Part shown: positions 14,946-52,292 of the stretch, one piece after another | Layout: every line of letters starts with the position of its first letter | Numbering within the stretch: the first letter of the stretch is position 1 | Source: Novakomyces olei | Lineage: Eukaryota > Ascomycota > Novakomycetes > Novakomycetales > Novakomycetaceae | DNA: 64,000 nucleotides | Reading direction: 5' to 3' | NCBI GenBank assembly: GCA_016906335.1 | Contig: JADEYG010000009.1 | Location: 1,355,001 to 1,419,000, forward strand | Notes under the pieces: generated by a model | What the model was told of the DNA's origin: nothing | The model's input: only the letters and a program-made list of their open reading frames with translations | Database searches by the model: none | Made by a program: the position numbers and the translations under genes

Positions 14946-17258
14946 CTAATGCTCCACACTCCAAACACGAATAAACGAATTTAAAAACCTTTGTTCATCG
15001 GCCGAGACAGCAAGCTCCTCTGCTTCCTCCAATTGCCAGACTCTTAGCCCGATCAACGCATGAGCCAGGCGGGCAAAGCAGTTGTCGTGATCACGCCTAA
15101 AAGTAGCACTCGCAATGCATCCTGCCTTTAGGGTTACATGAGCCATTATCCCACCGGCATCGACGTCCACAGAAAAGGCGGGAGTCGCACCATAGACCCA
15201 ATCGTCAGACGCAAGTTGCTCCATCGTATCGCGGACAAGGAGCAAGGACTCTGGTGTACAAGTAATATGGCTCACACTGGCTCCCGGATATTGGCGCCGT
15301 AGGCCTCTTGTCAAAATTGCACAAAAAAGAGAGTGAGGGATACGGATATTGGCAACAGGGCTCCTTACACTAGCAATACCTCCGGCTTGGTGAATACTGT
15401 CAGCCATTGGACTGTGCAGGAACCTTCCAAGCTCATGTAAATTGCAGTTTAAAAGCATTGTAGCGTGGTGATAAGCTCCGACTTTGGCCAGTTTAAAGGC
15501 AGAGCCAGAGACTTTAAAACCCCGTGGACCCGTAACGAGATCGTGACGCTCATTGACTCGGACGTCAATTCCAGCACGTTGCAATTCCTGTGCAAATAAT
15601 TGTCCATAATAATCACGATCAAAGGCATTACGGGGCATCATTACACAGAAGTTTGTGTTCTCCAGATCATGAAAGACGGTGCCGCCGCCGCTGAACCTGC
15701 GTACAAGAGGGATATTGCTCTTGTTTATCAGTGGCAAGTTGCACTCCTTCCAAGGGTTTTGGTTGCGGCCGATAACAACACAGGCAGAATTGCGGTAAAT
15801 AAACAGGATTCTTTCCGATTCACGGTGCCGGTGCAGATAGTCTTCGTAAGCCAGATTGAACAGTGGATCGGTCGAGTCGGAAATAACGATTTCTGCATTG
15901 CCCTTTGCAGGAGTCGTAGAGTCATAGAATGTAGAGTAATGACGACACAGAAAAGTGTCAGAATTAGTGCAAAGGTTTATCGAGTGCAGCCTTGATAGAG
16001 AGCTCGATCTGGAGACAGAGCTGACGGAGGAGAAATGCCTTTGGCCTGCAGACTGGCCGATTGTACGGGCCAGGGGCGTTGAGGTATGAACCGTTGATCT
16101 GGCAGGCTGCTTCCAGGCTGCCTTTGGCTCAGAACCAATTTGTTTTAATTTTTTATCCAAAAAACGAGTTGAAAAAGGCCGTGGAAAGAACCGTCTTGGG
16201 CAAGGTTCGTACAGAAACATAGCCCGCTCATACGCCCTTTTGTAAGAGTCGCTAGACTCTGTGATGCCAGTGCCGGCAAACACTATTCCTTTGAGCCAGT
16301 CAAGGTTCCGTGTCCATACAGGGCAGCCGTTTGAATGCGCAAGCATATCGAGGAACTGGCTCTTCCACCGCCGACAGTGGTCGCTGCCGGCTTTAAATCG
16401 TGTGGGAATACGGTCGTTTTGCGAGTCTGGAGAGCCAAGTGTTTGACTTGAACCAATACTTGAGGCTTTCCCATTACGATGGCTCTTTGTATGTGAGCCC
16501 TTACCATCACAAGTACTCGAGTCCACACTGAGCTGCACTAAAACTGCCGGGACTGGCTCTCGGAAGGCTATGGAGCCATTAGACGTTTTGATCAACTCGC
16601 AAGTCTCTGAAAATACGCTCAAATAAGCTCGACGCCAGCGCCGAGCGATGCCTGGGAAATGCCTTTCCATACGTGCAGACTGAGCGATTGACAGCCCTCC
16701 AGCTGCTCCTCTTTGTAAGCGGTCTATAAGGAAAGGCGACAGAGGCGGCCGAATGGCTTCCATAATCTTCTCAAACACCTTCCACTCGTGCTTGGCCCAT
16801 CTTTGCAAGGGAAAAGGCGCACCAACAGAGGCAGCATTATGGACAAATGGAACTCTTGATATTGTCACCGTTCTAGCCAGCTTTTCAAGGATGGGCGGGT
16901 ACACGGGAGGCCTGGAGTGTGGCATTGAGGCAATGTATGGAGCGGCCGCTTCAACAGGTTCCATAAGTAAAAGCTTCAGGAGCGAAGTGCGCCTCGAGCC
17001 CGGCGCGGCTCCGTAAGCCTGTGCCAGTAAAGGCCGCAGAGTTTTTGGCTGACCAGAGATTACATCCTTTATAAACCGCACACGCTGACGAGCCCGGCGT
17101 ATATGCACACACGCGTATCGCTCATCGATCCACGTTTTGCGAGTTCGAAAGCCGTTACGAATCTGTGCGGCCAAAAAGTTACGGACCAGCTCGTCTTCAA
17201 CACAGGCCGCATGACGTAACAAGTTTCGGTATAGCTGAAGAGCTTCTGATTGGCGCAT
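14946..17258 (-). CDS. Fusion: Cup1-like LYR-motif protein + lipoate-protein ligase (LplA/Aim22-like)
   Basis: A single uninterrupted 770-codon frame. Residues 1 to about 190 look like the fungal Cup1-like LYR protein: LYR in SEALQLYRNLL, then TLRPLLAQAYGAAPGSRR and PLQRWAKHEWKVFEKIMEA with an IRPPLSP motif. Residues about 453-770 are a lipoate-protein ligase: RRFSGGGTVFHD near 521-530, the catalytic-Lys region GFKVSGSAFKLAK near 580 and HHATMLLNCNL. Between them lies an Arg/Ser-rich linker that itself resembles mitochondrial presequences (RRFFPRPFSTRF; GQRHFSSVSSVSRSSSLSR). Lipoate ligases attach lipoate to mitochondrial dehydrogenase E2 and glycine-cleavage H proteins; LYR proteins work in mitochondrial assembly through acyl-ACP. 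An internal ATG at 16220 (Met347) could also give a separate ligase with its own presequence. Confidence 0.82.
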   Translation of the reverse strand: MRQSEALQLYRNLLRHAACVEDELVRNFLAAQIRNGFRTRKTWIDERYACVHIRRARQRVRFIKDVISGQPKTLRPLLAQAYGAAPGSRRTSLLKLLLMEPVEAAAPYIASMPHSRPPVYPPILEKLARTVTISRVPFVHNAASVGAPFPLQRWAKHEWKVFEKIMEAIRPPLSPFLIDRLQRGAAGGLSIAQSARMERHFPGIARRWRRAYLSVFSETCELIKTSNGSIAFREPVPAVLVQLSVDSSTCDGKGSHTKSHRNGKASSIGSSQTLGSPDSQNDRIPTRFKAGSDHCRRWKSQFLDMLAHSNGCPVWTRNLDWLKGIVFAGTGITESSDSYKRAYERAMFLYEPCPRRFFPRPFSTRFLDKKLKQIGSEPKAAWKQPARSTVHTSTPLARTIGQSAGQRHFSSVSSVSRSSSLSRLHSINLCTNSDTFLCRHYSTFYDSTTPAKGNAEIVISDSTDPLFNLAYEDYLHRHRESERILFIYRNSACVVIGRNQNPWKECNLPLINKSNIPLVRRFSGGGTVFHDLENTNFCVMMPRNAFDRDYYGQLFAQELQRAGIDVRVNERHDLVTGPRGFKVSGSAFKLAKVGAYHHATMLLNCNLHELGRFLHSPMADSIHQAGGIASVRSPVANIRIPHSLFCAILTRGLRRQYPGASVSHITCTPESLLLVRDTMEQLASDDWVYGATPAFSVDVDAGGIMAHVTLKAGCIASATFRRDHDNCFARLAHALIGLRVWQLEEAEELAVSADEQRFLNSFIRVWSVEH

Positions 17259-17658
17259 TGCTGCTGTTATAATGCATATTGCGCTGCGATTGGGCGCGCG
17301 ACTGAGCAGGACATGAGTGCCAGTCCAGAAAATTAGTTAATTAATTAATTATTTAATAAATGTTTATTTAATTAATAAATTGTTTATTCATTTATTCATT
17401 TATTCATTTATCTCTTCATTTATTTGTCATTTATTATTTATTATTCATTATTCATTATTCATTATTCATTATTCATTATTCATTATTCATTATTCATTAT
17501 TCATTATTCATTATTCATTATTCATTTATAGGTAGAATGCGCTTGCAACGCCTTTTACATGACACCAATATGGCCTTCAGCAACTCTTACAGTTGCTGCT
17601 AAACGTCGAGTCTTGAACAGACGCGTGCGCGTTTGCGCGCACGCGTTTTTTGATTAAT
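17259..17658. promoter_or_regulatory. Divergent promoter with 7-bp repeats and an ACGCGT palindrome
   Basis: 400 bp between the LYR/lipoate-ligase and Trs130 starts. TTCATTA-type 7-bp units fill about 17405-17528. At 17621-17646 lies a perfect inverted repeat with arms ACGCGTGCGC and GCGCACGCGT around a 6-base GTTTGC centre, ending 12 bp before the Trs130 ATG. ACGCGT is the MluI cell-cycle box bound by MBF in yeasts; use here is inferred. Confidence 0.55.

Positions 17659-22371
<4,713 letters not shown>

Positions 22372-49363: not shown

Positions 49364-52292
<2,929 letters not shown>

Follow-up and report, generated by a model that had tools for sequence, protein, structure and literature searches.

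A LYR protein and a lipoate-protein ligase in one open reading frame of Novakomyces olei: a predicted tandem mitochondrial precursor

Tandem mitochondrial precursors are a known kind of protein. A review reports internal cutting by MPP for Arg5,6 of S. cerevisiae and, for Rsm22-Cox11 of S. pombe, matching signals identified in silico (PMC8847149), and the separation of Rsm22-Cox11 after import is stated in Angerer 2015 (PMC4381221). The latter paper also deals with predicted fusions of LYR proteins. Its Table 2 presents nine of them, a selection of 30 predicted, and none of the nine has a lipoate ligase as partner; the same paper raises help with import and balanced expression as possible benefits of LYR fusions, and cautions that many predicted ones may be annotation errors (PMC4381221). 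A 2024 survey in Open Biol puts the LYR proteins with extra domains or fragments at about 7% (PMC11293456), and S. pombe Cup1 is described as a LYR protein of mitochondria whose gene is essential (PMC12811382).

Here we have analysed a gene of N. olei that joins a LYR protein to a lipoate-protein ligase, a pair that our literature search, conducted partly on titles and abstract openings, did not find. The gene lies in a stretch of 64,000 nucleotides, which we call the window and whose coordinates are used throughout. We think it reasonably probable that its product is a tandem mitochondrial precursor, from which cutting after import would release a LYR protein and the ligase. A fusion of genes is a pointer to proteins required jointly by the cell, and this one would tie a little-understood branch of the LYR proteins to lipoate metabolism.

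Two protein families in one frame

The fused gene occupies 14946..17258 on the minus strand and consists of one frame of 770 codons plus a stop, read from an ATG and carrying matches to both Pfam families, inside a stop-to-stop frame of 796 codons. A stop-free frame of 770 codons with an N-terminal LYR domain and a C-terminal lipoate ligase had been described in the original prediction, and the Pfam searches confirm it on the minus strand, 17258..14946; the plus strand, read in the given frame over 14946..17258, is full of stops. The whole frame stayed open in none of 3000 first-order Markov simulations, and the linker of residues 231-440 (210 codons) was stop-free in 8 of 20,000. The open frame is real and beyond chance expectation. 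Six-frame searches of the 14.34-Mb, 15-contig genome, in which introns were ignored and only the best candidates were scored, returned the fused frame as the only whole-protein match. An upstream ORF of 15 codons plus stop (17267..17314, minus) stops 8 bases short of the start ATG and could dampen translation of the fused gene. Further along the window, a large coding frame (18274-22371) contains long tandem repeats of NHSVDKS-type units at about 21270-21900, and these repeats can also be read without a stop on the opposite strand and in a second frame, in the ORFs 20908-22176 (minus) and 21144-21944 (plus).

The LYR domain comprises residues 1-92 (16983..17258, minus) by Pfam and by the AlphaFold2 model. 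PF20263 (LYRM2-like) matches residues 9-92 with 36.1 bits against a curated cut-off of 26.8, and membership of this family is further indicated by the LYR motif L9-Y10-R11 (17226..17234, minus) and by F37, both of them present. The phenylalanine, the last residue of I33-R34-N35-G36-F37 (17148..17162, minus), lies downstream of the LYR motif, and the possible importance of a residue so placed is raised in a passage of Angerer 2015 (PMC4381221). Complex1_LYR (PF05347) matches residues 5-57 with 23.3 bits on the whole protein, slightly below its cut-off of 24.8, and with 28.1 bits on the fused frame in the genome frame search. Three helices are modelled, at residues 3-18, 23-38 and 46-67, with a block pLDDT of 53-78 over residues 1-70. 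The domain had been called Cup1-like: its place in the LYR family stands with a score over the cut-off, and the label given by the library is LYRM2-like (PF20263), a family which we take to include the Cup1-like LYR proteins. Residues 93-346 (16221..16982, minus) are partly helical and were searched against Pfam up to E 10 without a match; helices continue at low confidence up to residue 349 in the AlphaFold2 model, and folding residues 1-346 as a single sequence gave no usable model (mean pLDDT 39). We regard this region as the probable C-terminal portion of the LYR protein. Judged by eye, the start of the LYR half (MRQSEALQLYR) is without a classical presequence, so that the front half has to rely on a different import signal. 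Family membership is what suggests that the LYR half is complete and mitochondrial. At the level of the genome, the fused frame is the sole match to PF20263 over the cut-off among three at E up to 10, and Complex1_LYR has eleven at the same limit; eight of these are flagged over the cut-off, including one that passes only together with its neighbours in its frame. A second LYR-bearing frame (L014:1429-2772, 447 aa) has 19.6 bits for Complex1_LYR, below the cut-off; its C-terminal region is very long and matches no family over a cut-off.

The lipoate-protein ligase, with a catalytic and a C-terminal domain, comprises residues 442-770 (14949..15935, minus). LplA-B_cat (PF21948) matches residues 464-639 with 168.8 bits against a cut-off of 27. 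The active-site motif RRFSGGGTVFH, from R520 to H530 (15669..15701, minus), has eight residues in invariant columns, and K582 (15513..15515, minus) is the invariant lysine of the alignment; R520, R521, H530 and K582 are among the 23 invariant columns of 60 aligned sequences, the window included. We take these to be the LplA-family motifs RRxSGGGxVxHD and the lysine of K-x-S-G-S-A, which can also be seen in our alignment. Residues 453-768 of the model align with residues 1-337 of 4tvw_A, and residues 455-766 with residues 5-347 of 2e5a, structural comparison with the full model being informative for residues of about 440-768 only; by these alignments the C-terminal accessory domain is present. 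The Pfam family PF10437 gave no score in this ligase, nor in 64 of 120 listed relatives (the ligase relatives considered throughout are 120 listed of 2017 matches, from candidates of up to 1.75 times the query length, about 742 aa). The NCBIfam equivalog TIGR00545 scored 204.1 bits and did not reach its cut-off of 280; since that library was built for bacterial and archaeal annotation, the family homology stands and the equivalog label does not. Judged by the modelled fold and the invariant residues, the ligase half is complete, and by homology it is a member of the LplA/LIPT1/Aim22-type lipoate ligase family. Its closest known counterparts are the fungal lipoate-protein ligases or lipoyltransferases (Aim22/Lip3, LIPT1, LplA family). 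Elsewhere in the genome, a search at E up to 1 brought one further LplA-B match, a separate frame of 245 aa with what we take to be a LipB-type signature, RGGLTTYHGPGQL.

The join between the halves

Could the fusion be the product of an unseen intron or of a sequencing indel that joins two neighbouring genes? We hold this to be very unlikely. Three introns of this window, in genes which we take to be kinesin-like, cyclin-like and SET-domain-like, start with GTA and end with CTAAT and a further 5-6 bases that include the final AG. The one in the SET-domain-like gene, at about 50009-50170, is filled with a long TTTA repeat. The 3΄ splice signal CTAAY-N(1-7)-AG does not occur on the coding strand of the fused gene, so that the linker has no such acceptor; the window has 74 of these signals on its two strands, which by our arithmetic predicts about 1.3 in the gene, and this absence alone is not strong evidence. 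A very loose branch-plus-AG pattern, which would favour an artefact, occurs 16 times in the gene and three times within residues 231-440. An intron had been named beforehand as a possible maker of the join, and no canonical intron signal was found there. One candidate was rejected in the LYR half (16672 to 16568), weak and with a branch-to-AG distance longer than in the three introns; its 105 bases are a multiple of three, so its removal would keep the frame and leave the fusion untouched.

The same was asked of a sequencing indel. Runs of T and of A, 5-6 bases long, at residues 362-370 are possible places for one, and stops of the other frames follow at 368.7 and 371.3. Against this, after Met347 no ATG occurs on the strand up to residue 445, whichever of its three frames is read: after a stop near 370 the ligase would be left without a start, one indel cannot split the fusion into two ordinary genes, and a frame in which it would do so was not found. 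The presequence-like stretch up to RHYS, moreover, lies in the frame of the ligase. Taken together with the missing CTAAY-type intron end, these checks on the sequence speak against an annotation error for this LYR fusion.

Base composition and codon usage were also considered. At a GC content of 0.48-0.53 the linker is no AT-rich spacer; six stretches that we took for intergenic have 0.31-0.46. The hexamer ATTAAA occurs at residue 371, which counts against the tandem-precursor reading, and AATAAA is absent from inside the gene. In-frame codon scores on the LYR side were 0.037 (residues 1-92), -0.020 (93-230) and 0.013 (231-346), and on the C-terminal side -0.127 (347-440), 0.067 (441-640) and 0.070 (641-770); windows of 116 codons served as the yardstick, with means of 0.115 (sd 0.067) for the true frame, scored on the same ten pieces used for training, and -0.143 (sd 0.066) for a wrong frame. 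Residues 231-346 have the highest score of the six frames, yet one that is 1.5 sd below true coding sequence, and residues 347-440 have the lowest of the six frames and are not coding-like, a point on the side of an artefact. This non-coding look might fit a presequence of odd composition; codon usage leaves the linker unsettled.

A processing-type motif before the ligase

The R-3 rule for presequence processing underlies the pattern R-x-[YFL]-[SA]. Residues 347-441 (15936..16220, minus) form a linker that is disordered and presequence-like by its pLDDT and motif density: residues 348-448 have a pLDDT under 50 in the AlphaFold2 model, and the 95 residues of the linker hold three such motifs, at R360, R407 and R439, against a background of 1.23 per 1000 counted over 6508 residues from other ORFs of the window. 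The fourth motif of the ORF, at R520, lies inside the active site of the ligase. Two presequence-like segments, residues 355-366 and 405-417, had been predicted in the linker, to which RHYS at 439-442 adds a third site. The linker also contains an acid-free stretch, residues 378-433 (15960..16127, minus), with 56 residues free of Asp and Glu, 7 K/R and 19 S/T. It is the longest such run in the fused ORF, nine other ORF pieces of the window reaching 29-99, and charged amphipathic 18-mers number 7/94 in residues 347-440 versus 14/92 in the LYR domain and 35/330 in the ligase. Acid-free length and amphipathic 18-mers were rejected as hallmarks of the linker, since other ORFs and domains equal or exceed it.

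The presumed R-3-type site R439-H440-Y441-S442 (15933..15944, minus; RHY followed by S) was examined for its position in the ligase relatives. In a first count, the motif was found 10-45 residues before a conserved proline in 44 of 99 relatives among the matches listed, 7 of the 120 having been left out for want of the marker and 14 for short N-termini. R439 lies 29 residues before the invariant asparagine of the ligases (N468 in the window), and within 23-32 residues before this asparagine the motif occurs in 41 of 94 usable relatives (the 120 listed and aligned, minus one without the Asn and 25 with fewer than 33 residues upstream), while 500 shuffled controls averaged 4.6 and never exceeded 10; the range was set after viewing the table of the first count, and the relatives are not independent. 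Distances peak at 25 (14 relatives) and 29 (15) among those listed, and the relatives listed that bear the motif span basidiomycetes, ascomycetes and early-diverging fungi. The prediction of internal presequence-like segments thus gains support from a cleavage-type motif in a position shared with these relatives. The N-terminus before the conserved proline has a median of 48 residues in the 99 relatives among the matches listed and, with no ATG between Met347 and residue 445, the usual start methionine of the ligase is missing. Hence a presequence-like segment with a processing motif stands before the second protein, as looked for in a tandem precursor. Apparently the ligase half has retained an ancestral presequence cleavage site within the fusion; this suggests that a tandem precursor can arise when the downstream gene is deprived of its start codon while its import signal survives.

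A different use of the same frame would be through alternative starts: the fusion would be made from the long transcript, and a mitochondrial ligase with a long presequence would be made from Met347, by leaky scanning or on a second transcript. This we regard as unlikely. Met347 (16218..16220, minus) is the only in-frame methionine between 305 and 540, has G at -3 as Met1 does, and is followed by MFLYEPCPRRFFPRPFSTRF and later by the acid-free residues 378-433, and the presequence site is kept in the ligase frame downstream of it. Its extension before the conserved proline, however, would be 118 residues against the median of 48, a length reached by 2 of the 99 relatives among those listed; the GC content of 0.52 over 16000-16567 leaves no AT-rich, promoter-like spacer before it; a predicted helix of low confidence (337-349) spans it; and translation from Met1 would still yield the fusion, because no stop intervenes. 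The earlier suggestion that Met347 could start a separate ligase stands as to the candidate, the sole one in frame with the next methionine at 540, and its use is unsupported.

We propose instead, as the preferred explanation, that the gene specifies a tandem precursor. One mRNA would give one chain, with the LYR protein in front (residue 1 up to about 350-440) and the ligase behind (442-770); this chain would be imported into mitochondria and cut there by the matrix processing peptidase between Y441 and S442, with further cuts perhaps between 362 and 363 and between 409 and 410, and two separate proteins would be released. The LYR half would then bind acyl-ACP and act as an assembly factor, the ligase would lipoylate dehydrogenase and glycine-cleavage proteins, and synthesis as one chain would hold these two proteins, both dependent on mitochondrial fatty-acid synthesis, at a fixed ratio.

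It is doubtful that the halves stay joined for good, with the LYR domain docking acyl-ACP beside the ligase so that octanoyl supply or the acylation state of ACP controls lipoylation. Such a permanent fusion would agree with the presence of the LYR motif and its downstream phenylalanine, with a ligase complete by fold and invariant residues, and with the dependence of both halves on mitochondrial fatty-acid synthesis, as set out in parts of the LYR literature (PMC11293456, PMC4381221). It is opposed by the cleavage motif at a conserved position between the halves, by the about 100 residues of very low confidence that separate them, and by the separate LipB-like frame in the genome. To our knowledge, LplA-type enzymes use free lipoate, lipoyl-AMP or CoA/GcvH donors, not ACP, which also counts against it. 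Equally doubtful is a product that remains partly uncut, in which the acyl-ACP-loaded LYR half would be an in-cis gauge of fatty-acid synthesis and set the activity or position of the ligase; were this true, acyl-ACP sensing would be physically linked to protein lipoylation. Two readings had been offered for the locus at the outset. The precursor cleaved in mitochondria is the one favoured by the motif counts in the listed relatives, and the link from acyl sensing to lipoylation has found no direct support. The fusion would be a natural test of co-regulation between acyl-ACP status and lipoylation.

Relatives of the fusion and known systems

The 120 listed ligase relatives were searched for a LYR family at E up to 0.1, and not one carried it. 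Homologues that are always split had been held out as a sign against the fusion; split they are among these 120, and this does not make the fusion an artefact. The absence of LYR from the listed relatives shows a fusion that, in the sequences compared, is rare or lineage-specific. A whole-protein search returned no fused relative among 7997 candidates, a weak result, as its words came from the first 500 residues only and it also missed ligases longer than 423 aa that the ligase query found. The search with the LYR half gave no relative among 2416 candidates, so no full-length LYR relative. Other domains were seen in predicted lipoate ligases: a rhodanese match over the cut-off in P0077 of Umbelopsis (a predicted protein) and, below the cut-off, a CHCH-type match in P0047 of Entomortierella and a deaminase-like match in P0066 of Rhizopus. 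In a ligase tree of 55 rows (the window plus 54 of the 120 listed relatives), the window stands on a long branch beside Pneumocystis, Protomyces and one further row, weakly (80/64), and the rows closest to it by path are basidiomycetes; from this we read a fungus, perhaps of the Taphrinomycotina.

Similarly to Arg5,6 of S. cerevisiae and Rsm22-Cox11 of S. pombe, the gene of N. olei holds two unrelated proteins in one frame, with an internal presequence-like segment and a cleavage motif. It differs from both in that the pair is a LYR protein and a lipoate ligase and that its cleavage is predicted. In this genome Rsm22 and Cox11 themselves lie on different contigs, which counts against the tandem-precursor reading. 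With the Aim22/Lip3, LIPT1 and LplA ligases the C-terminal half shares the two-domain fold, the invariant residues and an R-3-like site in place, and unlike them it follows a LYR-bearing front half of 350-440 residues. With the LYRM2-like proteins of PF20263 the N-terminal half shares a LYR domain above the cut-off, and unlike them it runs into a ligase. Finally, as in the multi-domain LYR proteins (Angerer 2015, Table 2; Open Biol 2024), a LYR domain and another domain occur in one predicted protein, and in contrast to the nine fusions of that table the partner here is a lipoate ligase.
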